Virus record (IMG/VR): IMGVR_UViG_3300027733_000132 | Span: 1-33,896 of that record | Reading direction: 5' to 3' (one strand) | Origin: a virus | DNA: 33,896 nt | Shown here: in pieces, positions 2,178 through 29,317 of the stretch | How the letters are laid out: the number at the start of each line of letters is the position of its first letter | How positions within the stretch are numbered: the first letter of the stretch is position 1 | The notes under the pieces: generated by a model | Told to the model about the DNA's origin: nothing | The model's database searches: none | The model's input: the letters and a program-made list of their open reading frames with translations, nothing else | Translations under genes and position numbers: made by a program

Positions 2178-2412
2178 TATCTATAAATATAGTTGTATTT
2201 CCTTTTTTGTATTTAGGAAAATATGCACAATGTCTACAACCATTACCACAACAGTATCCACGACTTAAATGAAATTCTTCGGTAAAGACATATTTTTCAT
2301 CTTCAATATAAAATGAAGAAGGGAGAAGTTTTACCTCCTCCCCTCCATTATTATCTTTTTGATTTATATTACTTGATTTCACAAGCTCCACCAGCACAAG
2401 CCAATTCACCAC
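2170..2412 (-). CDS. Small cysteine-rich protein, DUF5522-like
   Basis: The core reads YVFTEEFHLSRGYCCGNGCR followed by HCAYFPKYKKG. The CCGNGCRHC cluster after an FTxxxHLxRGY segment is the pattern of the small DUF5522 family, common in Bacteroidota and of unknown function. The four clustered cysteines and one histidine could bind a metal ion; that is inference. The start is uncertain. ATG at 2412 gives 80 residues and a 44-nt overlap with the reductase gene. A GTG at 2382 gives 70 residues and a 14-nt overlap. Conserved sequence only begins around residue 30. The stop overlaps the gp25 start by 8 nt. A GC-rich hairpin lies inside the N-terminal part (2321-2344). The gene follows the reductase directly, so a role in redox or metal supply is possible but unproven. 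Confidence 0.7.
   Translation of the reverse strand: MVNWLVLVELVKSSNINQKDNNGGEEVKLLPSSFYIEDEKYVFTEEFHLSRGYCCGNGCRHCAYFPKYKKGNTTIFIDNG
2183..2189 (-). promoter_or_regulatory. TATTTAT element upstream of gp25
   Basis: The sense (minus) strand reads CTATATTTATAGATA just before the gp25 ATG at 2177. It is one of ten copies of TATTTAT found in sense orientation ahead of genes here. The spacing of 5 nt to the ATG would give a very short or leaderless transcript if it acts as a -10 box. A leader or translation role is the alternative. Confidence 0.45.
2321..2344 (-). terminator. Possible weak terminator or attenuator hairpin
   Basis: In the minus-strand RNA, GGGAGGAG can pair with CUUCUCCC across a GUAAAA loop, giving 8 pairs with one G-U. 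A moderately U-rich stretch (UUCUUCAUUUUAU) follows. It lies about 25 nt after the reductase stop. It could end or attenuate reductase transcripts, but it also falls in the apparent reading frame of the small cysteine-rich gene. I treat it as tentative. Confidence 0.3.
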
Positions 2413-4228
2413 TCAAATCTGTGTTGTCTTGTAATTCAACAACTTTTGATAAGTCAATTGTGTGAAGTTTAGCGAATAATCTTTCGTATTCTTCTTTTGT
2501 ACAATCTTCAAATGGTGCTTGAATGTAACTTCCACCATCATGAGGTAATACAGATAAACCATTATAGAAGTCACGGTTTTCCCACATCCACTCACCTGCC
2601 AATTCCCAATCTTCATTTTTCAAACTGATTGTTGCCGATACGTTGTGTGTGTTTGAACCAGTTCTGTGACCAGGTCTTACCCACTCTTGTGTGATTTTCT
2701 TAACACGGTCCAACAATTGAAATGGAGATTCTGTTCTCAAAATTGCTCCTTCAGGAGATTTTTGTGGAACTGAAATAACTGCCGTGTCGTGTGGACGGAA
2801 GAATTCATCTTCAACCAACTCAGGGTGATACATTGCCAAGTATTGATAGATTGCTTCGTTCTTACCTACACGGATTCTACGAAGGTAATAATCATTATGC
2901 CATGCGTGGATACCTGAAGATGTTCCCAATGTCAAAGATGTTGTACCTGCTGGTTTTACAGTAGTTGTACGAGCCGATTTGTTAATACCAATCAACTCAG
3001 CAACTCTTGCATTTTCTTCTTTAACAAGTTTAGCAGCCTCTTTCATGTTATAACCCAATACAACACCTGAACCGATACCTGTCATAGATACACCAATCAA
3101 CGCTTCCTTTTCTGTAGTACGTTTCCATACGTCTCTCAAGTAATGGAAATCAGTATAACCCGCTTGGAGTGTTCCAATGAAAGTCGCCGCTTTAACACGG
3201 TTGTTCAAATCTTCTTGTGATTCAATGTCAGAAACATTTACCTCACATAAGTTACAGAATTGGTTTGGTCTCAATGCTATCTCACAACATGGATTAGTAC
3301 CCCAATCTTTATCATTGGTGAAATAGATTCCAGGTTCACCTGCTCCTGATGCTTCAACCCTTTTCCACAAGTCCATGAAGAAATCTTTTGTGATTTTATG
3401 TCTAACCAAAGCCGCTGAATTGTTAGCCCTACCTCTTTGTGGATTTGTTTCCCACCAAGAACCTGATTTACAAGCAATCATCTCGTTGTCATCAGCTGAG
3501 AATAAAGAAATCAAAGCCGCCCTACGAATACCACCAGCAAGAACTGCGTCTGCAATGTGACATATCATATCGTGAACTTCAATTGATGATAATTTTTGAC
3601 CATCTTCTTTTGCGTCCAACATACCTTTCAATTTGTGAATACAATCTTTCAAAGGTTGAGGACCCGGTGCCTTACCACCTGATGTTACAAGTTGTGCCCC
3701 TTTTGGTCTAACGTCTGAAAAATCAAATTCAGGTGTTGACAAATGCTCACCAAAGTAAGATTTCATTAACACTTTAATTGCGTCAGCCCATCCTTCAATA
3801 GAATCCCCAACCAAGAATCTTCTTGTTCTATTTGGGTTAGGTTTTCTAATTTCAGGAAGTTTTTCTACGTGATGTTTTTGAACTGAATATCCTACTCCAG
3901 TTCCACCTAATAACAAGAACATTGTTTCTGAGAATGCGTCCAAGTGGTCAATAGGAAGGTAAGCACAGTTGTAGATTCTGTTTGGAGAAATCTCAATTGG
4001 TTTACCACCAAATTGCATTGACCTCATTGAAGGTAATACTTTTTTAGTATACACATATTGATACACGTCCACAATCTCACTTGCGATGTGGGGGTATTTC
4101 TTAATGTGCATATTCATGTTTCTTGTTACAAGCTCTTCCCAAGTTTCTCTTCTTTCCAACTCAGGAATAAATTTTGAATACTTCATGTGAACCGTTAGGT
4201 CCGACAATATCTTTTGTGATGCGTCCAT
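2369..4228 (-). CDS. nrdJ: Adenosylcobalamin-dependent (class II) ribonucleoside-triphosphate reductase
   Basis: The enzyme reduces ribonucleotides to deoxyribonucleotides using adenosylcobalamin. The 619-residue protein follows Lactobacillus leichmannii RTPR along its length. C88 in YNCAYLP matches one redox cysteine (C119). C314 and E316 in NPCCEIAL match the thiyl cysteine C408 and E410. C325 in FCNL matches C419; the 11-residue spacing from C314 is the same as in RTPR. The tail CAGGACEIK (C611, C616) matches the RTPR tail CEGGACPIK, which re-reduces the active site. It is about 120 residues shorter than RTPR, partly because the region after GVGYS lacks much of the RTPR insertion that mimics a dimer interface, so it may be dimeric (inference). 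The usual NPCGE is NPCCE here. The ATG at 4228 has an A-rich leader. It lies between the helicase and a small cysteine-rich gene, and serves phage dNTP supply. Confidence 0.93.
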   Translation of the reverse strand: MDASQKILSDLTVHMKYSKFIPELERRETWEELVTRNMNMHIKKYPHIASEIVDVYQYVYTKKVLPSMRSMQFGGKPIEISPNRIYNCAYLPIDHLDAFSETMFLLLGGTGVGYSVQKHHVEKLPEIRKPNPNRTRRFLVGDSIEGWADAIKVLMKSYFGEHLSTPEFDFSDVRPKGAQLVTSGGKAPGPQPLKDCIHKLKGMLDAKEDGQKLSSIEVHDMICHIADAVLAGGIRRAALISLFSADDNEMIACKSGSWWETNPQRGRANNSAALVRHKITKDFFMDLWKRVEASGAGEPGIYFTNDKDWGTNPCCEIALRPNQFCNLCEVNVSDIESQEDLNNRVKAATFIGTLQAGYTDFHYLRDVWKRTTEKEALIGVSMTGIGSGVVLGYNMKEAAKLVKEENARVAELIGINKSARTTTVKPAGTTSLTLGTSSGIHAWHNDYYLRRIRVGKNEAIYQYLAMYHPELVEDEFFRPHDTAVISVPQKSPEGAILRTESPFQLLDRVKKITQEWVRPGHRTGSNTHNVSATISLKNEDWELAGEWMWENRDFYNGLSVLPHDGGSYIQAPFEDCTKEEYERLFAKLHTIDLSKVVELQDNTDLSGELACAGGACEIK

Positions 4229-10127: not shown

Positions 10128-13100
10128 TTAAAAACTTACAAGATTAAATTTTATCATTATTTCTAATACTTCTGACGCGGCTTTTGTTAAATCAGGTATC
10201 ATATTTTTATTTTTAGCAATAAAAGTTTGTTCTTCTTGTAAATTATTAAATCGTTTTGTTGGCCACCATCCAAGCCATGTTGAGACCATACTTAAGATAT
10301 AATCATCTTTAGTTGCCCATTTATTAGTTCCTACATTAATCAAACTTTTTGAAACACCAGCTTGTTTATTAAAATAATAATTTTCCATAAAGTTTATTGA
10401 GTTTTCAAAACTTGTGAATACCGCAACTGGTTGTGTAGCACCACCTTGATTTGTTTTACAAGCAAATGTTTTTGTAAAATATTGTTCTCTTCCACCATAA
10501 GATATCTGAGGGAATGGTAGTCCTCCCAATGGAGTACCTCCTAAATCAAAATTAAATGAAACAAAATTATTATCATCGTGACCATTTAAATATGATGTGT
10601 AGAATATCATTGCCCTAGTTGGTATAGAACTAACATTTTCTTTTAATAATTTTGCCATATCACCGTATGATAATCTTTGAATAGTATTTTCAACACCAGT
10701 GTATTTTTGATATTTAACGTTTGCCGCTTGGATATCTTTAAGACATTCAACGGGCGCTGACGCGGTAAATTTACCATTTGTTTGAACACCATTACCAATT
10801 GTTATAATATTAACGGCTGGTTGTGCGGTTGTTGTAGCGGTTTCTTTAAGTCTTCTAACTTCTTGAACTAGTTCTGCTAATAAACTAGTGTTAAGTGTCA
10901 TAATTTGTTGTTCTATTAACGGCAATGAATATAAAGGCATCCTAACACCAGTAAAGAATGTTTTAAATTGTCCTGCATCTATTGAATGTTCAACCGATTG
11001 TATCATATAAGGACCTCTAAACATTGGAACATAACGTAAATTGAAATACATGGTAGGTTGTATCATAGCATTACCCATAGACTCAACTCTACATTCATAA
11101 CTTCTAGTTTTATACAAATTATATAAACTAACATTTTGTGTATTTGACCTTGTACCACCAGCTTGGTTTGCAGCATCTGTAATAACTCTATTACCTTCAG
11201 TTGTTGCCGCTGCAGAGTTTTGGTCTAACTGTATACTGTAAAACATACTTTGATTTCGTGTCCCAAAATCAACATTAAACGCAACAACTCTATTTGATTG
11301 AGCCCAATCTTTTTTTCCTTGTAATTTATCAATTAATGGCATTCTAGCAGGTGCAAAATCAAACGCATCCGTTTTCCATCTATACTCAGGATTTTCTCTC
11401 ATATCCAAATGTTCACTTGGTTTTCCAGCATAATAACAAACAAACTTTGGAGATGCGAATCTATAATCAACATCTAAGAAAGTACCAAATAATGAATTTG
11501 CCATATCATTTGTTGGTTGAGCGTTTGGTGTTTCACCTTGTTTTACATCACCAACACCCCAAAAATTAATGTATGCTGGCATAGGCATCATTTGGAATTG
11601 ATTATCAGCAATAATTCTACTAACAAAGTCAATACATCTTGTATCCAATGATGTGGTTCCTGAAAAGAAATCTTTTAATTTAAAAATGTCTACATAAACA
11701 GCATCACCAATATCTCTGTTGGCCCTATCTAAGAATAAAACATCTTGAAATAATGTTCTATCTTTATAGTTACTACCTGCAATCCATTTGTCATTAAAGG
11801 CTTTAAAAGTTTCCCAAAATTCAATCTTTGTCTGTATACCATCAACCGCTGATAAAATAGGTTTTTCATTGGTTTGTTCAACATTCGGTAAATCTTTTTG
11901 AAGTGTTGAAAACAATTGTGTTAGTGTATTGTTTAAAAATACGTTTTTACTTTGATAATATTCATTAATTGATGTGGTAAAATTACTACTACCATATACC
12001 GTTGCCGATGATTCATCAAGTAATTTTTGTGTACCAAATATTTTAATTAAAGGAGCAAAATTAACTACATTTGCCTGAGTGAATTCAACATTCATTGTTG
12101 GAAAGAAATCAGTATAGTAACTACCATTATTTGAGTACGTCATACCTGATTGTGTTGCGAATCCAACATAATTATACATTGCTTTCCAAGCATCGGGATT
12201 TAAACTAACTGATTGTGATAAAGTTAAAGTTCCTGTTGCTGTTGGTAAGGTATTTTGAACATAAGGGTTGTAAGTATATGGGTCAATAACTTTGAATTCG
12301 GGTAATGTTGTAAACGTACCAAATAATTTTCTATCAAAGTTACTTGGGTTACCATACTTAAAGGCAATGTTATAATTCATAAATGAATTAATCATTTCAC
12401 TTATTTTGGTTCTTTGTGAATTATTACAAGTTGTTATATAATTGTCGTATGATTGGGTATTGTCAACATATTGTATTGTTAACATTTCACCCATAATTGA
12501 TTGAAAGTTTCTATTAATAAATGTACTACCCGATATTTGGTCAGCGGGTAAGTCATTATATGATTTTGTAAAATTCAAAAATTCAGTTTCAAATGAATCT
12601 AAGATTTCTTTCTTAAACGTTCCAAAAACATCTTCAATTTTTGTATATGTTTGTCCAAATTTAACAGCGTTTTGTTTTGAATCTCCAGTAAAAATTTGTT
12701 TAAAATATTCATTGTAATTTGGTTTAGTAATACTTTGTAATTCAAAATAACCATAATTTGGTGCCGTCCAAAATGTTCTAGCCGAACCATTGTAGACCGC
12801 AGAATTGTTAAATACCTCTTGTGTTAAAGTTAATGTGTTACCAGTTGTACTTTGTTTAAAACATTCAGAACTAATCTGATTATAGTTTGTTGAAAAACTT
12901 GGAATTAAAATTGTTTTTTGTTGTTGGTATGTTTTAAATTTGGTTGAGTTTTTTGTATCAAATGAACTAAACCAAACATTCATATTTAAACTTCTATTTG
13001 GATTATTTGGGTCAAAACCATTTTGTAATGAAATTGCCGAATTACTAATAGGACCAACATTTAAACCTTCATTAACTGCGGTTTGAATTTCAGTATTTGT

Positions 13101-16100
13101 ATATCCCGTTATTAAATCTTGGCCAGCAATTAAGTAATAAACATCATTCATTAACTTTGGATAAAATCCAAGGTTCATAATTGAAATTGTATTTCCACTA
13201 ACAGTATTGTTTAATTGACCAACAATATTAAAGTTTTCATTTTTTTGGTTTTTAAAAGTGTATTGAGTTTCTAGTGAATTTGTTGTTGGGTCATATAAAT
13301 TAGGTGCGTTGATATTTGTCCACACAGAATCTAAAATATCCACATTTGTTTCAATATATGTTTTATATCTATGCCAAATAGAACCATATCTTAATATCCA
13401 AGAATATGGTAATCTATGAACACCACCAAATTTTGTTAATGTTGCAAAAATATAATCCAAATAAGTACCCTCATTTGGGTCAGTACCCCAAGACCAATCA
13501 GGTGGTTCTAATGAAAAATATCTTTCACTAAGATTTGACAATGGTAATGAATTTAAAAAAAGATATGCGGATTTAATGTATGGTGATGTGACACCATTGT
13601 TTCTGTCAGCTTGCACATCTTGTTGTAACGCATTAATAAAGAACGGTGTATTCAACATTGACACTGTTTGTTCAGGAAAAACATTTCCTGTTTTATTTAC
13701 ATAATTTAAAGGACCTTCAGTTGGGAGGTATACTTCCGTATCTCTTCTTGTTGCATAAAAATTATTAAAGGTTGTTGTTACTATAGGTGTTTGTGATGTT
13801 AAAAATGAATTATTAACAAAAGGTTTGTTTTGGTTATTATCAGTAACCCCAACTTGATAGTTTGTAATATATTTCTTTGTGGTATTAAGATATAAACTAT
13901 TTTTTGTTGTATATCTGTCGTACTTAACTTGTTTAATATTTGCCAAATGTTGTTTAGACCACGTATCACTTCTAAATGGATACACATCCATAATGTCTGT
14001 TGTTGTGGACTTTGATGATTTTACATACTCATCAACATTTTTTAACGATTCAACACTTTTTTCTGTAGATGTAGACGCTGCGGTTATTAAACTATCTTCT
14101 AAAATAGCATAATCTTTTGTTGTAATCGCCCTTAGGTATTCAGAAGTAAAAATACCTCTAATAAGTTGTTGCCAACTTGTACCAGTCCCATCATTTGATA
14201 TTTGTCTTAAAACATCCAAATAACTTTGCGGAATAAATCCAATATTTTTTAAAGTTTTAGTTAAGGCGGGACTCGTTCCTGTTAAGGATTGTCTAATATT
14301 TGCAACTTCTAAATCAGATAAAGTTCTATATACTGATAATGATGTTGCTCCAGATGTAGAAATTCTATCCCAATAGGTTGCCAATAAAACCCTCTCATAA
14401 ATTTCATATAAAAACTTAACAGTATCGTAGTCAGTATATGGTATATTTGTAGTTGGGAATTCAACAGCATTCATTGTGATTTTATTTACTGTGCGTCCTT
14501 CATTATTATCACCTGAAGGACCAGTGTCAGTGCTTGAACGTTGAGCTAATCCTTTCATATATTCCTCAACAAATTCAACTTCAGGCCACACATCAAAATT
14601 ATTTGCCTTTGTTCTTGAAATTTCTCTTGGGTCACCAGGGTATCTTAACTCATATTGTTCTCCTTTATCAGAATTTGTCTGAACATAGTATTGCGGCCAT
14701 GGATAAACAGGAATATTACTTAAATTTGGTGTGTTTGTTGTTTGTGTTAAATTTTTAGAATCTGTAGTTGTATTTGACTTGTCATCACCGTAAACCGCGG
14801 CTTTTCTATATGGGTGTAATCTTTTTGACCAAGCATCAGAATGAACATCATCCATTAATCTATAAAAGGCTTCAATTGATGCAAATATCATAGCCATGAT
14901 ATTTCTCATAGTTGGTTTAAATCCTAAACCATTTGGACCTTCAATTTTCTTGGCTAAAAAGGCGGTAAGAGCAGTAACAATTTTTTCTTTTTGTTTTGAT
15001 ATCTCGTCAAAAGTTTTTGATATTACATCTGAAAAATTACCAGCACCATCAAACACAAAGTTAAATGTTGGTTGTATTATTTGTTGATTTTCACCTTGTG
15101 TTTCTAATGGAACAAAAAATAATAATGATTGTGTTTTTAAAATGTTTTCTTCACCATTTCTTGGTTCTCTATTAGTTCTTGCAACAAACGTTTCGTACCA
15201 GTTAATGTCGTCTATTGAAATTGCCTTTCTAAACGTGTCTTCGCTAACATACAATGTTGTTGCGGGAGATACTTTGATGTTTTTTATTACATTAATTTGA
15301 GAACCTTGTTTAACACCATCAATTGTAAAACTACCATTTTCACCTAAAGTTTTATTTTTTAATAATTGTGTTTCATACTCAGTAACAAATTGTCTTAACT
15401 CATTATAAGCATCAATTCTTTTTTGGGGATTATCTCTTGTGGCTTTATTATAAATCCAAGTTTTAACACCCGTTTGATTATTAGCGGTTTTTGACTTTAA
15501 AACAAATGGTAAACTAACATCAATATATTTTTTAAACCAACTATCTTCAACAGGTGATGAAACATCATCACTAAATTTGGTCACCAATTTAAAATAGGTA
15601 TCCACATCCGATAATGGTGTGAAATCGGCTTGTCCAAAACTTTGAATTAAAAACTTTTCAAGACCCTCTAATCTCGCCCTTAATTCAGGAAATGAAAGTT
15701 CTGGTAATGTTGGTGAAATTAATTGGTCCGCCTTATATCTAGCATAAACTTCTTTAATTTTTTGATAACCTCTTGTTGTTCTTACACTTGACGTAACGGT
15801 TGTCGCGTTTTGTTGACCTCCAGTATCACCAATTACGACAGAATTTTGTGCTGCGTTTAAAGCTCCCGTTTGTGGTGCGGTTGCATTTATTTTAAAATCT
15901 GATGTATACATAAATGGAACCGCAAATAATGCACCCACTTGTGTTTCGGCTAATACCGTATATTTGTAAGAATAAAAATTAAGATTAATTCTATAGTTTC
16001 CAGTGTTACCATCAAAAGCCGCTGAAAATTTTGTAAGAATTAATTGGTATCTAATTGCTTTACCGTAATAACCTTTTAAGGTTAAATAAAAAGTTGGGTA

Positions 16101-16664
16101 TGGTAAGTTGAAAAACGCGGCATATTCAGAATTTTCACCTTTTTCAAATAACGCTCTTCCTTGAGTATCAATTAATGTCATTTCAACACTTGGTGTTGCA
16201 CTTCTATTATTTTTAACTCTAATAGTTTCAATACCTAATAATCCAGTATCTTGTGAATTTATAGTATTTTGTTTAAGATAAAACTCATCAGTTTTATTTT
16301 GTTGGCTAACATTTGTAATGTTTGGTTGGTTAGTTCCTTTCCCTGTACTTGTATTTAAACCAGTAATTTCATCAAGATATGCGTTTGTAAGTAATGTTTT
16401 ACCACCAGGTCTTAAAAAGTTCATAGCAGCAATTGGTACATTTTGAATCGCATCAGTTAATGGTGCACCGACAGCAAGTTTTGTTCTTGGAAAGACATTT
16501 GTAGCTTCCAAGTTTGCATACATAACCAAATTTTCATGATGAATTTGTCTTTCTCGGGCAACACCATTTAAATCAACAGTTTTGTTTGGGTCAACTAAAA
16601 AAACATTTTGATAATCAAAGTCTACGAATATGTTATCACCACCATTTATATTGTTATCTGCCAT
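10128..16664 (-). CDS. Giant baseplate hub-like structural protein (2178 aa)
   Basis: I read this as a hub-type baseplate protein much enlarged by insertion; the exact family is inferred. Near residues 150-260 is a beta-rich segment (GIETIRVKNNRSATPSVEMT, FFNLPYPTFYLTLKGYYGKA, NYRINLNFYSYKYTVLAE) resembling the first domain of tail hub proteins. Near residues 1870-1905 is YVPMFRGPYMIQSVEHSIDA followed by GQFKTFFTGVRMP, the closing pattern of gp27/GpD-like hubs. About 1400 residues of N/T/Y-rich sequence lie between. After a short helix (LLAELVQEVRRLKE) is a C-terminal domain of about 190 residues containing aromatic and GGREQYF segments, whose role I cannot assign. A cell-wall-acting domain is possible, but I see no catalytic signature. 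The start overlaps gp53 by 11 nt, supporting a baseplate role. Confidence 0.7.
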   Translation of the reverse strand: MADNNINGGDNIFVDFDYQNVFLVDPNKTVDLNGVARERQIHHENLVMYANLEATNVFPRTKLAVGAPLTDAIQNVPIAAMNFLRPGGKTLLTNAYLDEITGLNTSTGKGTNQPNITNVSQQNKTDEFYLKQNTINSQDTGLLGIETIRVKNNRSATPSVEMTLIDTQGRALFEKGENSEYAAFFNLPYPTFYLTLKGYYGKAIRYQLILTKFSAAFDGNTGNYRINLNFYSYKYTVLAETQVGALFAVPFMYTSDFKINATAPQTGALNAAQNSVVIGDTGGQQNATTVTSSVRTTRGYQKIKEVYARYKADQLISPTLPELSFPELRARLEGLEKFLIQSFGQADFTPLSDVDTYFKLVTKFSDDVSSPVEDSWFKKYIDVSLPFVLKSKTANNQTGVKTWIYNKATRDNPQKRIDAYNELRQFVTEYETQLLKNKTLGENGSFTIDGVKQGSQINVIKNIKVSPATTLYVSEDTFRKAISIDDINWYETFVARTNREPRNGEENILKTQSLLFFVPLETQGENQQIIQPTFNFVFDGAGNFSDVISKTFDEISKQKEKIVTALTAFLAKKIEGPNGLGFKPTMRNIMAMIFASIEAFYRLMDDVHSDAWSKRLHPYRKAAVYGDDKSNTTTDSKNLTQTTNTPNLSNIPVYPWPQYYVQTNSDKGEQYELRYPGDPREISRTKANNFDVWPEVEFVEEYMKGLAQRSSTDTGPSGDNNEGRTVNKITMNAVEFPTTNIPYTDYDTVKFLYEIYERVLLATYWDRISTSGATSLSVYRTLSDLEVANIRQSLTGTSPALTKTLKNIGFIPQSYLDVLRQISNDGTGTSWQQLIRGIFTSEYLRAITTKDYAILEDSLITAASTSTEKSVESLKNVDEYVKSSKSTTTDIMDVYPFRSDTWSKQHLANIKQVKYDRYTTKNSLYLNTTKKYITNYQVGVTDNNQNKPFVNNSFLTSQTPIVTTTFNNFYATRRDTEVYLPTEGPLNYVNKTGNVFPEQTVSMLNTPFFINALQQDVQADRNNGVTSPYIKSAYLFLNSLPLSNLSERYFSLEPPDWSWGTDPNEGTYLDYIFATLTKFGGVHRLPYSWILRYGSIWHRYKTYIETNVDILDSVWTNINAPNLYDPTTNSLETQYTFKNQKNENFNIVGQLNNTVSGNTISIMNLGFYPKLMNDVYYLIAGQDLITGYTNTEIQTAVNEGLNVGPISNSAISLQNGFDPNNPNRSLNMNVWFSSFDTKNSTKFKTYQQQKTILIPSFSTNYNQISSECFKQSTTGNTLTLTQEVFNNSAVYNGSARTFWTAPNYGYFELQSITKPNYNEYFKQIFTGDSKQNAVKFGQTYTKIEDVFGTFKKEILDSFETEFLNFTKSYNDLPADQISGSTFINRNFQSIMGEMLTIQYVDNTQSYDNYITTCNNSQRTKISEMINSFMNYNIAFKYGNPSNFDRKLFGTFTTLPEFKVIDPYTYNPYVQNTLPTATGTLTLSQSVSLNPDAWKAMYNYVGFATQSGMTYSNNGSYYTDFFPTMNVEFTQANVVNFAPLIKIFGTQKLLDESSATVYGSSNFTTSINEYYQSKNVFLNNTLTQLFSTLQKDLPNVEQTNEKPILSAVDGIQTKIEFWETFKAFNDKWIAGSNYKDRTLFQDVLFLDRANRDIGDAVYVDIFKLKDFFSGTTSLDTRCIDFVSRIIADNQFQMMPMPAYINFWGVGDVKQGETPNAQPTNDMANSLFGTFLDVDYRFASPKFVCYYAGKPSEHLDMRENPEYRWKTDAFDFAPARMPLIDKLQGKKDWAQSNRVVAFNVDFGTRNQSMFYSIQLDQNSAAATTEGNRVITDAANQAGGTRSNTQNVSLYNLYKTRSYECRVESMGNAMIQPTMYFNLRYVPMFRGPYMIQSVEHSIDAGQFKTFFTGVRMPLYSLPLIEQQIMTLNTSLLAELVQEVRRLKETATTTAQPAVNIITIGNGVQTNGKFTASAPVECLKDIQAANVKYQKYTGVENTIQRLSYGDMAKLLKENVSSIPTRAMIFYTSYLNGHDDNNFVSFNFDLGGTPLGGLPFPQISYGGREQYFTKTFACKTNQGGATQPVAVFTSFENSINFMENYYFNKQAGVSKSLINVGTNKWATKDDYILSMVSTWLGWWPTKRFNNLQEEQTFIAKNKNMIPDLTKAASEVLEIMIKFNLVSF

Positions 16665-16974
16665 AATAGAAGAAATAGTTTTCTATACCATTTTTATAAT
16701 CTTGTAATGAAGATATAAGTGGATATGGTATAGTCAATAAAGAATTGTTAGGTATATTCCATTCTAATCCACCATACTCAGGATTGGCTTGTAAAATTAA
16801 CCACCCAAAAAATGGTGTTCCATAAAATTGTTGTGATACCTTATCTAATCTACTGAATCCAGTTCTATAGATATATCTTTGGTCCGAAGTCTTACTTGGT
16901 AATGACACAAATGGAACTACGGTTTGTTCACCATTGATAAAAAATTGTTGGTATCGGTTATAATATGCGTCCAT
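16654..16974 (-). CDS. gp53: Baseplate wedge protein, T4 gp53-like (LysM-type fold)
   Basis: This 106-residue protein begins MDAYYNRYQQFFINGEQTVV. It contains YIYRTGFSRLDKVSQQFYGT, then PFFGWLILQANP and NSLLTIPYPL. The order 'dTl..Ia..fYG.p..wwlI..aN' is the LysM-like pattern of gp53 and tail protein X, which hold baseplate wedges together. It is shorter than T4 gp53 (196 aa) and seems to be the LysM-like core alone. Its ATG overlaps the stop of the 1619-residue gene (TAATG), and its own end overlaps the hub-like gene by 11 nt, so all three are coupled in translation. Their products probably assemble together. Confidence 0.82.
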   Translation of the reverse strand: MDAYYNRYQQFFINGEQTVVPFVSLPSKTSDQRYIYRTGFSRLDKVSQQFYGTPFFGWLILQANPEYGGLEWNIPNNSLLTIPYPLISSLQDYKNGIENYFFYYGR

Positions 16975-19900
16975 TAGTTAAATTTTCGTTTAAAGTTGTA
17001 TGGGTTAAACTTACCACTATTATTCTTATTAGAATAGATAGTTTGAAGTGTCTTTTTATTACTTTCAGGTGCGATTAAATCTTCAGCAAATACGGTAATT
17101 CTTTTTTGTGTTGAGCCAAATGGTGGTGTATATTTGATGTAGTTTTTGGCGACATCACCTGTTTTATAAATTGCCAATAAATCTGAACCAGACTTATTAG
17201 CATATGTCCATTGGAATCTTAATGAAATACCACTTGTGTCATAATAAAATAATACAGCATTTGTGGTTGCTTGGTCTAATCCTTCAACTAAAGCTTTTAA
17301 GAATCCATCTTTTAAATCTTTTTGTAACAAAGCTCTACTCATCAAAGTATATTCTCTAATTTTATATTGGTTAGGAGTATCATAATCAAAATAATCAAAT
17401 CCTTCTGTTGGTAATGTCCATGTTCCCGGCACTTTTGGGTTGTATCCATTCGTATTATATAATTGAGCATCTGTCAAACCTGATAAGAAAGTATTATTAC
17501 TATTACCTATTGTAATATAGTCATTTCTTAAAGATGTTAAACTATCAATTGTAGTTCCACTAACATCTTCAGGTGTTCCACTTATAGAATATAAAATTGC
17601 AATGTTTTTTTCATTTAATTTACCATCATATCCTGTTGTAGTTCCTGATGCAACAAAGTTTAATCTATCAATATTAAACACATAACTTTGTTGTAATCCA
17701 ACTAATGTTGATATTGGCTCAGTTAAAGAATTTAAGAATGTTGTTTGATATGTTTTAACATAATTTGAATAATTCTTTTTAAACAATCTTTTCTGAGCAT
17801 TTGTTATAATTGGGTTTGAAAATTCATAACTTGAGAAAATTGTTAAATCACCACCATCAATATCTTTTAACAAATCTTTAAACGCATCATCAACATATGT
17901 TTGTGTTTTAGCTGGTTTACCATATAAATTTACCGTCAAGTCTGTTGATGAGTTAAAACTACCGGTATTATATGTTTGATTATTATTACCATAATTTAAC
18001 ATTGATAACACACCATAGTTATAATTTGTCAAAATACTATCAAACATATTTAAAACACCATTATAATATGATTGAGTTTGTTCAACCACTTTATTCATAA
18101 ATGGTGCATATGTTAAAGTACCTGTTTGTCCACTTGCTGTTGTTCCAGTTGCTGTGAACACACCAATTGTATTACCACCATCTGTAGATATTTGAGTATC
18201 AACATTGGCAACACCAACAACAGGTTGTTGTGCTCTAATAGCACTAATAATTTCCTTATCAAGTTTACTTGTATCTTCAGTCGCCTCGGCTCTTTCATCA
18301 TACATTTCAGTATTCGCATAATAATTGAATGATAATGCGTTCTGTAATGTATCAACAGGATTTGCAAGTCCTGAACCACCAACAAAGTTGAATCCCATAT
18401 TAACCTCAACAATCATTGGTTGGAAACCAATACCTTCAGGATTAAAATCAAATGTTTGATATGTAAAACCTAAACTTGTTGGGATTATCTTTGTATTATA
18501 AAAATCACCAACACGTAAAACCAATACTGGTGGTGCCCCAAATGATGTGTTTAAAGCATCGTTATATAATTTATCACCATTGGGTCCAATTGTTGGAATT
18601 GTTTCACCAGGTCTCATACATTGTTGTAAGAAAGTTAAACGTGAGTTTAATCCTTCAGGTGTTGTTGAGTGGAACGCTGGTTGGAAATATTTTATTTTTT
18701 CTTTTATTGAATCATAAATGAATGGGTTTTCAGCCTTTAACACTTCAAAATAATCACACTCATTTAAAAGGTATCTTAATAATTTTTTAGATGCCCCTTT
18801 AAATAAAATCTCATCGGGTTGTGGTGAAACCACATTTGTTTGTGCGGGTTTTTTTGGTTCTTGATTATTTCCTGTGGCAGCAATTGCTTCTTGTGAGTCA
18901 GTATTGTTTGGTGCGGGCTGTGGTGCTGGTTGTTGAACAGTAATATTTGATATAATAACCGCCCTACAAGCCATGGCGTTTGTTGAATAAATTTTATTGT
19001 TTCCTGTTAAATCTTGGTGACAATCAACAGAACCAAATGAACTTGACGTTCCTTTTGGATTTGCGATTACAATATTTTCACCAACAGGTAATCCGTTTAA
19101 TACCAATGAGTTACCAATAAATTCATTAACTGATTTTCCACCAGCAAATGTGTATGTTTTAAAGAAATTTTCAACAGAACTTATTCTTCTTTGAGATAGT
19201 TTATTATTATACTCTTCAGTATTTGGTGATGAAGCACTTCCTCTTAAAGTAAGAATAATTTTTTCAGCTTGTTTTTGACTCAATAAATCATAAATTTTTT
19301 CAACCAAAGTTTTCATTTGAGTATAATTTTCATCAACAATATTTGTAAAGAAAGTTGATACTGTAGCAGCACTTGGCGCGTTTTGACTATATTTTGTTTT
19401 ATTAGTCGATGATGTATAAACATCATATGTTGATTGATATGGTGTTTCAGTTGTTGTGTTAGGATTTTGTTTTGGAATATCATTATCAAAATAAAATCCA
19501 TACTCCTTATAACTTGATAATGTCTCAGTTACCGTGGCTTGTTGAGCAACCCCTACTTCGGTTGATGTATTTTTAAATACACTTTCAATGTTTTCATTAG
19601 TTGCTTGTGGATTATTTGCAACTTCTTGCCAAGCTTGTAATTCTGTTAAGGGAATTGTATTGTATATCTTTGCAAGTTCATATAAATCATACTTTTTACA
19701 TCCAGCAAAGAATGAATTAACAATAGAATCTACTTTTTGTCTATCACCCTCATTGGACAACACCTTATTAACAATAACATTTAAAATTGACGGATGGTCA
19801 ACAACCATCTTCCATTTCAATGTACCACTACGAGAAGTGTTTTTATATGTATATACAGGTTCAGGTCTACCCAAGAATGTAGTTTCATTAAATGTTGGTC

Positions 19901-21833
19901 TTGTATCCTCAGTAAATGATAAATCATATGGGGGGAACCACATAACTCTACCACCATTTGGTCCTTGTTCACAAGCTGGCAAATCACTAACTCTATAACC
20001 AGGTCTGTGTCCAGTTCTCCAAGCTAAGTTCTCAACTGAGAACATGTATTTCTTTACCTTACCATTAACAATACTATCACCTCCCTTTTCAGGAGCAATG
20101 TTTAAGTTAAATGTTGAATCAACAATAGAATATGAAAACTTACGAATATTTCCGTCTTTTTTCTGTAAACTATTAAAAGTATAATATGGAGTATCTTTTG
20201 TAAAAACACGACAATATTCAATACCCACATTGGCTTGTCCATCAGAATATCTAATAACTTGTGAACCTTTGGTAATTTCTTTATATCCATCAAAAAATAC
20301 TTTTGATGTTTGGTCAATCGCATTACCTACGTGTCCAAATCTTGCTCCTGAATTTGGTTGTGAATCAATTAATCTTTGAGTATCATCTAAAATTGAGCCT
20401 GGTTTAAAAGCGTAATTAATTGATTCTGTTGCGGTTAATTGATTTGATATTGAAGGGAACGCAGGGTCTTGGTCACCATAGTCTCCACCAGGTTTTTGAT
20501 GTCTACCAGCATTTGGTGCCCATTTACCACTAACCCATGTAAATCCACCGACAATACTACCATCATCATCAAATGGTTTTCCCGCCAAACCAAATTTAAA
20601 GTCTTTATCAACACCTTCATATTCTTTCCCTAAAATATCAGGACCATAAACAGGTGCATTAACCTGACCACCGAAACTATCAATTGGTACCTGACCAGGA
20701 GGTGATGTAATATATTCAGGTTCTCTTTGTGGACTTCCAACATAATAAGTTCCTTGACTTGCGTTGTTGGCAATCGCTCCTGTAATGGCTTGACCCAAAG
20801 CAGATATAATACCTGTTCCACCTGTGTTATATTGTGGACGGTATTTGTTTGTTGCTAAATTTTGTGTTAATTGACCTCTTTGTCCTGAACCTGTATAATC
20901 CAAAAACAATTGAGATGGTGATGTTGGTCTTGAACCAAACAATCCAAATAACCCACCACGTTTTCCATTACCAGCGGCCGCTGCGGCTGAAGCGGCAGTA
21001 CCAAAATCTCTTGCTTGGTAATAACTACCCGGAATTGGTGAAAATGGAAGTTGTGCACCAGTTATTCTTTGCACAATATCCATCCCTTGTGATAATAAAT
21101 TACCACCTGATGTAATAGTCCAATCGGCAACAATTACGGGTCTTTTTCCAGCTATAATTTGTGATAAGTTAAATGGGTCTGAAAGACCTGATAAAATATT
21201 AACTCTACCAATTGTTGCCGCTCTAACATTTTGGTCTACTCTATATTGAAAAGCTCTTTTTGCCCCTTCAATACCCATTTGAGCAAGTTGTGAATCATCA
21301 CTAGCCGGTCCATTATCACCCGATGGGTCTTTTTGTAATAAAACAGCATATGGTGAATATGATGATGGTCTAAAACTTGGTGGACTCCAATATGTTTTAT
21401 TTTTTTGTACTTTAACAACATCACCCATATCATAATAGTTGTATTGACTTCCTGGTGAATATGCGTTTTTAATGTACTGTCTCTTTTGGAATGATTCAGA
21501 ATATACTTGTAAAGCATTAGTATATGGTGGTGTCGCACCATATGGACCTTGGTTTGAAGTTACTTGTTGGGTATTAACTAAACCATTAATATTTTTGTTA
21601 TACCCACCTAAAGGTCCAAATATATTATTAACATAAAGTTTGTCGGCAAATGGGTCAGCATCAATTAATACATCGGGAGAGTCAATAACCGCATAATCAC
21701 TTTGAACAAATTCACCCGAAGCAGGTGCTGATGTTGAAGTGTAAACACCAGGTTTGTTGTACGGAGTTAAGTTTCTTACTAGTAACTTATCTCTTAATAA
21801 TTTTGTCGCACTAAAACTTAATTGACTTGGCAT
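16974..21833 (-). CDS. Large baseplate/tail protein with embedded OmpA-like domain (1619 aa)
   Basis: This 1619-residue protein lies between the tape measure and gp53. Residues about 835-965 form an OmpA-like domain. It has an amphipathic helix (MKTLVEKIYDLLSQKQAEK), a strand (IILTLRGSAS), and the signature YNNKLSQRRISSVENFF, with N876, L879, S880 and R883 matching NxxLSxxR. R883 corresponds to the arginine that binds diaminopimelate; the aspartate of the usual TD pair is Ser here. A P/Q/N-rich linker follows. On either side are tail-type beta segments: VMWFPPYDLSFTEDTRPTFN before it, and APPVLVLRVGDFYNTKIIP and GFQPMIVEVNMGFNFVGG near residues 1090-1150. The latter resemble baseplate proteins at the tube end (gp48/gp54 role, inferred). 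An A-rich segment lies near residues 275-290. It starts with ATG 21833 and an A-rich leader. Confidence 0.75.
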   Translation of the reverse strand: MPSQLSFSATKLLRDKLLVRNLTPYNKPGVYTSTSAPASGEFVQSDYAVIDSPDVLIDADPFADKLYVNNIFGPLGGYNKNINGLVNTQQVTSNQGPYGATPPYTNALQVYSESFQKRQYIKNAYSPGSQYNYYDMGDVVKVQKNKTYWSPPSFRPSSYSPYAVLLQKDPSGDNGPASDDSQLAQMGIEGAKRAFQYRVDQNVRAATIGRVNILSGLSDPFNLSQIIAGKRPVIVADWTITSGGNLLSQGMDIVQRITGAQLPFSPIPGSYYQARDFGTAASAAAAAGNGKRGGLFGLFGSRPTSPSQLFLDYTGSGQRGQLTQNLATNKYRPQYNTGGTGIISALGQAITGAIANNASQGTYYVGSPQREPEYITSPPGQVPIDSFGGQVNAPVYGPDILGKEYEGVDKDFKFGLAGKPFDDDGSIVGGFTWVSGKWAPNAGRHQKPGGDYGDQDPAFPSISNQLTATESINYAFKPGSILDDTQRLIDSQPNSGARFGHVGNAIDQTSKVFFDGYKEITKGSQVIRYSDGQANVGIEYCRVFTKDTPYYTFNSLQKKDGNIRKFSYSIVDSTFNLNIAPEKGGDSIVNGKVKKYMFSVENLAWRTGHRPGYRVSDLPACEQGPNGGRVMWFPPYDLSFTEDTRPTFNETTFLGRPEPVYTYKNTSRSGTLKWKMVVDHPSILNVIVNKVLSNEGDRQKVDSIVNSFFAGCKKYDLYELAKIYNTIPLTELQAWQEVANNPQATNENIESVFKNTSTEVGVAQQATVTETLSSYKEYGFYFDNDIPKQNPNTTTETPYQSTYDVYTSSTNKTKYSQNAPSAATVSTFFTNIVDENYTQMKTLVEKIYDLLSQKQAEKIILTLRGSASSPNTEEYNNKLSQRRISSVENFFKTYTFAGGKSVNEFIGNSLVLNGLPVGENIVIANPKGTSSSFGSVDCHQDLTGNNKIYSTNAMACRAVIISNITVQQPAPQPAPNNTDSQEAIAATGNNQEPKKPAQTNVVSPQPDEILFKGASKKLLRYLLNECDYFEVLKAENPFIYDSIKEKIKYFQPAFHSTTPEGLNSRLTFLQQCMRPGETIPTIGPNGDKLYNDALNTSFGAPPVLVLRVGDFYNTKIIPTSLGFTYQTFDFNPEGIGFQPMIVEVNMGFNFVGGSGLANPVDTLQNALSFNYYANTEMYDERAEATEDTSKLDKEIISAIRAQQPVVGVANVDTQISTDGGNTIGVFTATGTTASGQTGTLTYAPFMNKVVEQTQSYYNGVLNMFDSILTNYNYGVLSMLNYGNNNQTYNTGSFNSSTDLTVNLYGKPAKTQTYVDDAFKDLLKDIDGGDLTIFSSYEFSNPIITNAQKRLFKKNYSNYVKTYQTTFLNSLTEPISTLVGLQQSYVFNIDRLNFVASGTTTGYDGKLNEKNIAILYSISGTPEDVSGTTIDSLTSLRNDYITIGNSNNTFLSGLTDAQLYNTNGYNPKVPGTWTLPTEGFDYFDYDTPNQYKIREYTLMSRALLQKDLKDGFLKALVEGLDQATTNAVLFYYDTSGISLRFQWTYANKSGSDLLAIYKTGDVAKNYIKYTPPFGSTQKRITVFAEDLIAPESNKKTLQTIYSNKNNSGKFNPYNFKRKFN

Positions 21834-26146: not shown

Positions 26147-29100
26147 TTAAATGTTTTCAAACGAAGCTCCTGTTGGAGTGATTAAGAATTCAATGTCAAT
26201 GAATTCCAACGCTTTTGTTGGTTTCAAATAAATCTTACCTGTCATAGTATTTCTATCTAAATCTTCAGGTGAATTACTTACAGTAACACGGAAATCATAT
26301 AAACCTCTGTCTCTTCTGATAGCATCCAAGATAGGGTTAACCGAATCCAAGAAGTCTTGTCTTACTTTAGCGTCGTTTTGTTCAAACAACAATCTTACAG
26401 CCACCGCTGAAATTAACTTACGAGCTTGTAACAACAATCTTCTTACGTTGATTCTGTTAAGTGCTGTGTCAGCAATTTGAAGAGTTTTGTTACCCCAAAT
26501 TACAGTTCCAACATCAGAGAATGTTGCAATAGGATTAATTCTACCTTGATACAAAGTATCTCTATCTTCTTGTGTAAGTTTCTTACGAGCTTTAATAGCA
26601 TTTACTAAACCTCTTGTGTAACCCGCAGTTGCGAACCAAGGGAATGATACGTTATCTGTCAAAGCTAAGTTTCTACAAACTTCATTTGTTGGTGGTAAGT
26701 AGATTTGTGTGTTATTAACAGTATCCCTAACCAAAATCCAAGGGTAGTAAGTTGCTGTATAGTTAGAGTCAATACCTGTGTTAGCCAAATTATCAACAGC
26801 TTCTGTTGGGTAAATAAAGTTGCCTGTATTTGTTGGAAGATATACATTACAATCAGGTGTTGTACAAATGTAGATAGAATCTGCTCTATTGTAAGTAACC
26901 ATTGAAATTGAATCTTCAACCAAGTTTGAGTTATTAGTATAATCAATACCAGGTGTTGCAAACACATTTATGTTTACCGCTTCAGGGTTATTAAATGTAT
27001 AGATACCTAACAAGTAAGCGTAGTAATCAGTATTTGCAAAATCAGTAAAGTTACCAATATTGATTGGTTTGAAAGCCCCCCAACCTGTTGCGTTTGGATA
27101 TCTTGTTGTTGGACATGCTCCTTTTTGGTAACCTGTTCCACCCAACATAAATTCATCTTTGTTTGTTCTATATTCACGATAAATGTCCCAACCATCAAAA
27201 CCATTTTGTAATAAGAAAGTGAATTTTCTTGCTTGTATTTGGTAATAAGGGTTTGCAGGTGTTTCAGGGTCAGTTTGGAATGAAGCATCACCACAGAAGA
27301 ACGCTGGTGTTCCTGAAGTAGGACCATAAGCGATTGTTACTACAGTTGCTCCTGAATCCATGTGAAAACCTTTTGTGATATAATCCCAAGGTAATCCTTC
27401 ACTTGACTCATCACAATATTGTGCTGCCGCTTGTCTACCTTTATATTCATAGAACGCTGGGTCATAACCAATTTGAGAAGAAATTCCCAAATATGTTGTT
27501 CTTACTCTATCACCAGAACTAACCACAGGATTATCAAGACCAGCAGTTGTTCCAAATGGTGGGTTATAAATAACTTGTCCTGGGAAATTATACTCTGTTT
27601 TATAAATTGGGAATGGAGGTGTTGTAGTTAATCCATCATATTCTCTAATAACATAACCTTCAAATCCACAAGGAACTGATTCTATGTTAGCATCAACATT
27701 TAGTTCTAACATGATGTATTTTGAATTCAATGCGTATTCACCATCACTAGTTCCAATTTTAACACCTACATAACTGTTTGAACCTGGGTTCATTGTACAG
27801 TTTGTGTATTTCTCTAAGATTACAGGATTAGAATCTGTATCAAAGAAACTACGAACCGCCAAATCAAAACTTAAGTTAGCGAATGATATATTTGAAATTG
27901 AAACTTTAATTTGTGTGTTAGCACTGTTACCATCAGCTACTGAGTAAATTTTAAATAACTTATCAACAGTACTACCGAATAATTGAGATACAACCCAAGG
28001 TGATTCAGGTGATTTATATGGTTGTAAATAGTTAGCAATTGTTCCTGTTGGATTTGAGTATCTAACACCAGGTAATGCAACTAAATCAACATTGATACCT
28101 TTAATGTAACCTTTATTGTATGCGTAGTTTAATAAGTTAGGGAATGTTTCCTCAACAAATAATGGTACTTCATTTCTGTCTTTACCAAAATTAGTAACAC
28201 CAAACGCCTTTGTAATATAGTTTGAATCTGTAGTACTTAAAGATGTTGTGAATGAGAACGCATCTCCTGATGTTGTTAAACCTGAAATTGCAAATGGTGC
28301 GAATGGGTTTTGTGAAATTGCTGCGTAAGTTCCTGAATTATCAATAATAACATCAGTTAATCCTGATACTTTATAAACAGGTCCTGTACTTCCAGCACCA
28401 TATGTAGCAATACCTCTTGAACGGAAAGTAGCCGCAATTAAATTATTGTAATCTGTATAAGCAGTTCCTGTGTAGTTATAAAGTGTTCCCGAAACAGTAC
28501 CTGAGTATGCTCCTGAACCAAGACTAATCATTCTTGATATTACATTATAGAATGAATATCCTGTATAAGCATCTCCTGAAGTAATATCAAAGTTTGCATA
28601 ATACCAAGTGTCATTATTACCTGATGTAAAATCAGCGTCTGCTGTTGTTACACCTGATACACCATAAACGTTAGTTGATGCTGTATAAGCCGATAAACTT
28701 GGTGACGCTCCTGATGGTATAGTACCAAAATAATCAATTGTAAAACCTGAACCAACACCAGCAGCATTGATTATTGGTGATATTTGTGAGTCAAGGTCAT
28801 CTTGAAGAGTTGAAATACTACCATTAAATTGTGTATAATCTGTGTTAAGAGCATTTTGAATAATAGATGGAAATGAACTTGTAAAAGTAATACTTGTAGA
28901 ACCTGTAGTACCTGTCCAACCAACAGAATATACTGTTGAACTTCCATTTAATCCAACGGTTGTTGTATCAACATTGGCAATTGTGGTTATTGACCATGAC
29001 GGTCCTGCATCATACCCCGACAATCCCAATACTCTTGTAACGAATAATTGGTTAGACTGTTGAAGGTAGGATTTGGCGATGTACGCCAATTCATATTTAG

Positions 29101-29317
29101 GAATTTGTGTGTTTACAAATTTTTCTGGAATTGTACCCCCAAAATAAGACTCAAAGTCTGAGTAGTTAGTGATGAAAATAGGTTCAAAAGCTGGACCCAT
29201 TAATGTCTCACCAACAAGACCAAGTGTGGTTACCCCAACACTTTGTGCTACAAAACTAAGGTCTCTTTCAGATGTGTATACACCAGGAGAAACGAAAACT
29301 TTATTTGATACTGCCAT
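26147..29317 (-). CDS. gp18: Tail sheath protein, T4 gp18-like (1056 aa, enlarged)
   Basis: The N-terminus VFVSPGVYTSERDLSFVAQS then LGLVGETLMGPAFEPIFITN is the sheath hallmark. The C-terminal domain is also typical, with KTLQIADTALNRINVRRLLL, SVNPILDAIRRDRGLYDFRV and PTKALEFIDIEFLITPTGAS. These terminal segments form the linking arms and inner domain that bind the tube and power contraction. T4 gp18 has 659 residues. The extra roughly 400 lie mainly in residues 110-370, which are S/T/G/Y-rich and repetitive (GSGAYSGTVSGTLYNYTGTA), and probably form exposed outer domains. The ATG is at 29317, with both TATTTAT and TATAAATA in its leader. It follows the tail completion gene and precedes the HAD-like gene. 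Confidence 0.93.
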   Translation of the reverse strand: MAVSNKVFVSPGVYTSERDLSFVAQSVGVTTLGLVGETLMGPAFEPIFITNYSDFESYFGGTIPEKFVNTQIPKYELAYIAKSYLQQSNQLFVTRVLGLSGYDAGPSWSITTIANVDTTTVGLNGSSTVYSVGWTGTTGSTSITFTSSFPSIIQNALNTDYTQFNGSISTLQDDLDSQISPIINAAGVGSGFTIDYFGTIPSGASPSLSAYTASTNVYGVSGVTTADADFTSGNNDTWYYANFDITSGDAYTGYSFYNVISRMISLGSGAYSGTVSGTLYNYTGTAYTDYNNLIAATFRSRGIATYGAGSTGPVYKVSGLTDVIIDNSGTYAAISQNPFAPFAISGLTTSGDAFSFTTSLSTTDSNYITKAFGVTNFGKDRNEVPLFVEETFPNLLNYAYNKGYIKGINVDLVALPGVRYSNPTGTIANYLQPYKSPESPWVVSQLFGSTVDKLFKIYSVADGNSANTQIKVSISNISFANLSFDLAVRSFFDTDSNPVILEKYTNCTMNPGSNSYVGVKIGTSDGEYALNSKYIMLELNVDANIESVPCGFEGYVIREYDGLTTTPPFPIYKTEYNFPGQVIYNPPFGTTAGLDNPVVSSGDRVRTTYLGISSQIGYDPAFYEYKGRQAAAQYCDESSEGLPWDYITKGFHMDSGATVVTIAYGPTSGTPAFFCGDASFQTDPETPANPYYQIQARKFTFLLQNGFDGWDIYREYRTNKDEFMLGGTGYQKGACPTTRYPNATGWGAFKPINIGNFTDFANTDYYAYLLGIYTFNNPEAVNINVFATPGIDYTNNSNLVEDSISMVTYNRADSIYICTTPDCNVYLPTNTGNFIYPTEAVDNLANTGIDSNYTATYYPWILVRDTVNNTQIYLPPTNEVCRNLALTDNVSFPWFATAGYTRGLVNAIKARKKLTQEDRDTLYQGRINPIATFSDVGTVIWGNKTLQIADTALNRINVRRLLLQARKLISAVAVRLLFEQNDAKVRQDFLDSVNPILDAIRRDRGLYDFRVTVSNSPEDLDRNTMTGKIYLKPTKALEFIDIEFLITPTGASFENI

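Follow-up and report, generated by a model that had tools for sequence, protein, structure and literature searches.

OmpA-type C-terminal domains, such as those of OmpA (3td5), Pal, MotB and TagL, belong to bacterial envelope proteins and share a common fold, the motif NxxLSxxR, the Asn, Leu and Arg of a diaminopimelate (DAP) site, and an Arg in the last strand. In a study of TagL, the DAP contacts are Asp486, Asn494, Leu497 and Arg501, and the domain serves a contractile machine, the T6SS, by anchoring it to the wall within the envelope of the attacking cell (PMC8253398). For A. baumannii OmpA, titration of the D271A and R286A variants is reported to show that D271 and R286 are critical for DAP association (PMC6572160).

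The tube initiators of contractile systems, among them Afp7, Pvc7, Cis7, Mu gp43, A-1(L) gp18 and the T4-type tube cap, are encoded alongside genes for tube, hub and wedge proteins. They are small where Pvc7, Afp7 and Cis7 are concerned (chains of 223-232 aa), and Cis7 and Mu gp43 carry a LysM domain. In the accessible portions of the open-licence literature, LysM is the only cell-wall-type fold found in tube initiators, where it is treated as structural; no paper there combines OmpA with a tube initiator, and the available part of one jumbo-phage review leaves OmpA unmentioned. Here we describe a phage protein of 1619 aa, with long N- and C-terminal additions, in which the likeness to the tube-initiator barrel comes in two pieces and an OmpA-like domain, rather than a LysM, lies inside the barrel. 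That this protein is a tube initiator with an inserted OmpA-like domain is almost certain.

The carrier protein and its OmpA-like domain

The window, the whole stretch of DNA analysed, is a virus contig of 33,896 bases, and it covers the part of a large T4-related phage with a contractile tail in which its tail and replication genes lie; relatives were found on contigs of up to 345 kb. Its other genes encode gp32, UvsX-like, DnaB-like, exonuclease, SNF2-type helicase and ribonucleotide reductase proteins. The ribonucleotide reductase (2369-4228, minus strand) is 68, 62 and 62% identical to those of Microcystis, Vibrio and Oceanospirillum phages that look unrelated, and at most 40% identical to those of the remaining phages among the matches listed, which indicates a patchy spread. 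The sheath protein (26147-29317, minus strand, 1056 aa) is matched by sheath family profiles mainly in its C-terminal third, residues ~767-1054, and so has a large extra N-terminal part.

The 1619-aa protein is encoded at 16974..21833 on the minus strand, and is identified as a tube initiator, or baseplate tube-cap protein, by its open reading frame, the fold matches of its central part and its neighbours. A gp26-like hub gene lies upstream, with one 616-aa ORF between, and a gene for a gp53-like baseplate wedge protein of 106 aa (16654..16974, minus strand) follows directly downstream; the sheath, tube, hub and wedge genes are all on the same strand as the 1619-aa gene, as in the neighbourhood of known tube initiators. 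The wedge gene matches phrog_7145 ('baseplate wedge subunit') in each of 28 relatives examined, with a best E of 5.7e-8, while the large tail protein family itself has no recognised match in PHROGs. Beyond the wedge gene, a 2178-aa protein (10128-16664, minus strand) matched nothing in Pfam at E <= 1 or in PHROGs at E <= 0.05. The C-terminal region of the 1619-aa protein (residues ~1250-1619; 16977..18086, minus strand) is fused here, and corresponds to a separate 360-aa ORF in the relative L193 (profile match, E 1.8e-8).

The OmpA-like domain comprises residues ~770-967 (18933..19526, minus strand), as judged from Pfam, a PDB profile, an AlphaFold model and reading of the sequence. An earlier note on this DNA had recognised an OmpA-type domain in mid-protein, and both points are borne out; the span proposed there, 18930-19330, covers residues ~835-968 and misses strand β1 (the FYFDND stretch) and the long β1-α1 loop. 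The note had drawn on the NxxLSxxR signature with its conserved Arg, which is indeed present at residues 865-887 (GSASSPNTEEYNNKLSQRRISSV; 19173..19241, minus strand), with pocket positions S868, N876, L879 and R883 identified by spacing and conservation. The loose motif N..L[SA]..R...[VI] is found a single time in the protein and was also present in 62 of 20,000 residue shuffles of that protein, so that the signature by itself would be suggestive, not decisive. The OmpA-like identity is instead decided by homology, namely by Pfam, the relatives and the PDB profiles.

With the whole window protein as query, the Pfam OmpA family (PF00691) matched residues 841-892 at E 9.5e-4 and 19.9 bits; the excised domain gave E 7.1e-5 and 23.5 bits and a six-frame search 24.4 bits, all against a curated cut-off of 27.2 bits, which one relative (L267) exceeds at 29.6 bits. 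At E <= 0.1 the family was matched by 40 of 46 relatives. Searching the PDB with the profile built from these 46 relatives brought up 32 chains with E no higher than 1, most of which, with few exceptions, are OmpA, Pal, MotB-type or YfiB, and a profile of the sister clade found Pal at 3e-7. Of the 55 regions taken from the sister clade, 34 matched Pfam OmpA at E <= 0.1; the remaining 21 include L257, which is without the insert, and the other 20 count as putative OmpA-like regions. Eight of 81 ORFs without both anchors were set aside and read by eye. One of these frames, the broken frame of L262 (3-3578, plus strand), contains an extra long, repeat-like, β-rich stretch inside the insert region that looks propeller-like by eye. 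The sequence of L194 alone gave no OmpA match against the PDB, though its Pfam OmpA E is 0.008.

Structure prediction, proposed earlier as a check, agreed with this assignment. In an AlphaFold model built with 82 sequences the domain has pLDDT values of mostly 85-97, and it superimposes on A. baumannii OmpA (3td5_A) with Z 10.7 over 119 residues at 2.3 Å (VIA-align). A chance motif is ruled out by the family profiles and the fold, and a mis-sited frame by the single open frame of 1619 aa.

The last β-strand of the domain and the stretch leading up to it contain Cys938, Cys956 and Arg957 (18963..19022, minus strand), picked out by their conservation: both cysteines are present in 67 of 67 representatives and Arg957 in 65 of 67. 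The two cysteines (18966-19022, minus strand) likely form a disulfide; two cysteines are also found at a similar location in E. coli OmpA.

The barrel around the insert and its spread

The insert is flanked by two barrel halves, residues ~590-677 (19803..20066, minus strand; pLDDT mostly ~70-85) and residues ~1058-1162 (18348..18662, minus strand; pLDDT ~58-88), which together match Pvc7, Afp7 and Cis7. A first model made from 37 sequences left the flanks mostly below pLDDT 50, and the deeper model was used for this reason. The halves match Pvc7 (6j0n_b) with Z 11.8 over 152 aligned residues at 5.7 Å (model range 26-598), followed by Afp7 (6rao_G, 11.4), PlPVC1 (10.9), a Streptomyces CIS (10.8), P1 (10.0), T4 (5iv5_BE, 9.4) and Mu (8.9); phiCD508 and an Anabaena CIS also match, within Z 8.9-10.9. 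The chain names Pvc7, Afp7 and gp48 are what we take the PDB entries to denote and were not assigned by the tool. Viral structure models named tube protein or baseplate (tail) tube cap matched as well. Foldseek returned no PDB match for the model at E <= 0.001, the barrel parts have pLDDT 58-88, and pTM for the whole model is 0.39. It is thus with moderate confidence that the two predicted halves are read as a tube-initiator-type barrel, inside which the model places the OmpA-like domain, between predicted helices.

This bears out the earlier expectation of tail-type β structure on both sides of the domain, which interrupts the barrel. The protein called a baseplate protein in the note is here read as a tube initiator or baseplate tube cap. 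Because a tube initiator is expected at the tip of the tube, this location suits the idea of a grip on the wall more than one in a peripheral baseplate protein.

Pfam LysM gave no match in the 1619-aa protein, though a diverged LysM could escape Pfam, and among five whole records it matched one, ~86 kb from that record's OmpA match. T4 gp53 carries a LysM domain, according to a published account (PMC10966104), while the gp53-like profile obtained here has no meaningful sequence relative in the PDB. We do not claim that the OmpA-like domain replaces a LysM.

The domain is not peculiar to the window phage. Scans of viral contigs yielded at least 520, at least 504 and at least 598 relatives in overlapping sets. 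One alignment set omitted L076, whose frame is broken in the contig. A tree of the barrel only, with 102 of 186 rows kept after near-duplicates were left out, and rooted at the midpoint, contains two large clades of 44 and 58 rows, and OmpA-like inserts occur in both. Comparison of related phages for the insert, as the earlier note had proposed, thus found it in two deep clades and absent from L193 and L257, which retain the barrel and have no OmpA match elsewhere in their records. These two form one group beside L261, nested in the second clade, and under the midpoint root the missing insert may most simply be explained by one loss. The insert is apparently ancestral in a widespread group of uncultivated phages, and in the L193/L257 lineage it is dispensable for building the tube end, since it is absent there with the barrel kept.

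One relative, L195 (QCKH01000012.1), lies on a 51-kb contig of the Prochlorococcus single-cell genome AG-409-L21, a hint at the host of the phage group. Its insert is diverged and recognisable by eye only (Pfam OmpA did not match it at E <= 0.01), and a search for a host origin of the domain in 146 genomes of the phylum of that Prochlorococcus record gave three weak matches besides the phage contig itself. Searches of 50,697 phage records by tblastn, a set from which near relatives may be absent, found no cultured relative with the window protein at E 1e-5, nor with the L195, L250 and L223 proteins at E 0.01. By sheath the nearest phages are Microcystis phage Mel-JY01 and LR756508; their near-sheath ORFs, compared as five proteins from Mel-JY01 and, for L092, the frames above 80 aa, gave no meaningful profile match to the 1619-aa protein.

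The ligand pocket and a possible grip on the wall

The spacing of the four pocket positions is 8-3-4 in both TagL and the window protein, where they are S868, N876, L879 and R883. Conservation was assessed with identical proteins collapsed (137 unique of 191) and ORFs below 1000 aa left out. Among the 123 unique relatives spanning the site, the window included, N is present in 118, L in 117 and R in 120; at the Asp position 113 have Ser and two have Asp. Clustering at 80% identity gave 67 representatives with the same pattern (N 63, L 62, R 65, Ser 59, Asp 2); L193 was left out of these counts and of the identities given below. The canonical Asp occurs in L150 and L155, which read GQTD...N..I...R. 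In the sister clade the strict motif was found in 30 of 55 regions, with Ser at the Asp position in 27 and Asp in none; the other three comprise one Thr and two regions that did not fit the regex and where inspection by eye shows GFAS. The pocket residues are lost in L048 and L057, on two branches. Among the PDB alignments examined, this position is Ser in FopA1 (6u83) and Asp in five other chains. Replacement of the usual Asp by Ser, to which the earlier note had drawn attention, is therefore real and nearly fixed.

The phage domain thus differs from those of OmpA, Pal and MotB in having Ser for the DAP-contact Asp and a long β1-α1 loop, and in lying inside a tail protein, with the fold, the motif, the exact spacing and the last-strand Arg in common. 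Since the Asp is replaced, the domain is classed as OmpA-like by descent and fold, and not as a DAP binder. Nothing weighs more heavily against classical DAP binding than this Ser. Nevertheless, three of the four DAP-pocket residues are kept while the remaining domain diverges: compared with the window, the domain has a median identity of 0.36, and the barrel halves have 0.65 and 0.71. Divergence this fast around a conserved pocket suggests ligand binding.

In contractile tails, the tube end is the part that enters the periplasm. Just above the spike, six copies of the tube initiator would form a ring at the end of the tube, and upon contraction this ring would be carried across the outer membrane together with the tube. 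Its OmpA-like domains could then bind periplasmic peptidoglycan through the pocket with Ser in place of Asp, and so might stabilise or orient the tip of the tube as it penetrates the wall. Wall binding is favoured here because the pocket is conserved although the domain changes fast, and because the tube end enters the periplasm; it is plausible and unproven, because the Asp altered in D271A is reported as critical in A. baumannii OmpA and yet is Ser in the phage. We would put the chance that wall binding is the main job of the domain at about even. The fuller proposal, that tail contraction delivers to the periplasm a tube initiator bearing an OmpA-type wall anchor, with a Ser-for-Asp pocket tuned for a transient hold on peptidoglycan, is offered tentatively.

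The main rival to wall binding is, by analogy, a part as structural glue such as LysM plays in known tube initiators. The LysM of Cis7 joins the tube to Cis9 and Cis12 (PMC8894136), and that of Mu gp43 is viewed as a structural component (PMC11915804). A borrowed OmpA fold might likewise tie the tube end to the wedge or the sheath initiator, its wall binding lost, as the missing DAP-contact Asp and the loss of the pocket in L048 and L057 would allow. However, the domain has diverged far more rapidly than the barrel, whereas an interface with slow-changing partners should stay conserved, and the pocket residues are the very part that is kept. Moreover, L193 and L257 lack the domain with the barrel intact, and a separate gp53-like wedge protein is encoded by the adjoining gene both with and without the insert. 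A purely structural role is, on balance, less likely than wall binding.

The constancy of the Ser, with Asn, Leu and Arg kept, would also fit an altered pocket for a ligand other than DAP peptidoglycan, be it a differently modified wall, a partner from the phage itself, or a host protein of the periplasm or outer membrane. OmpA-type domains do occur in protein complexes, and the TolB/Pal and YfiB/YfiR complexes are among the structural matches of the model. However, no candidate ligand was found and the motif otherwise fits DAP binders with identical spacing, which makes such a ligand improbable. That the domain is a relic, an old acquisition retained by inertia with no present role, is hardly credible: it is absent from one lineage and some copies are degenerate, but the pocket residues and both cysteines are nearly invariant across deep divergence.

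If peptidoglycan binding by the tube initiator is true, a contractile machine would grip the wall of the cell that it enters with the fold that the T6SS uses to anchor itself in its own cell; the TagL domain acts in the envelope of the attacker, whereas the phage domain would be part of the virion tube end. Next to the LysM known from the literature covered here, the OmpA-like domain is a second wall-binding fold in tube initiators, unrelated to the first, with most of the ligand pocket kept. A large tail protein family missed by PHROGs now has a name, and the wall as a foothold for contractile tails becomes directly testable.
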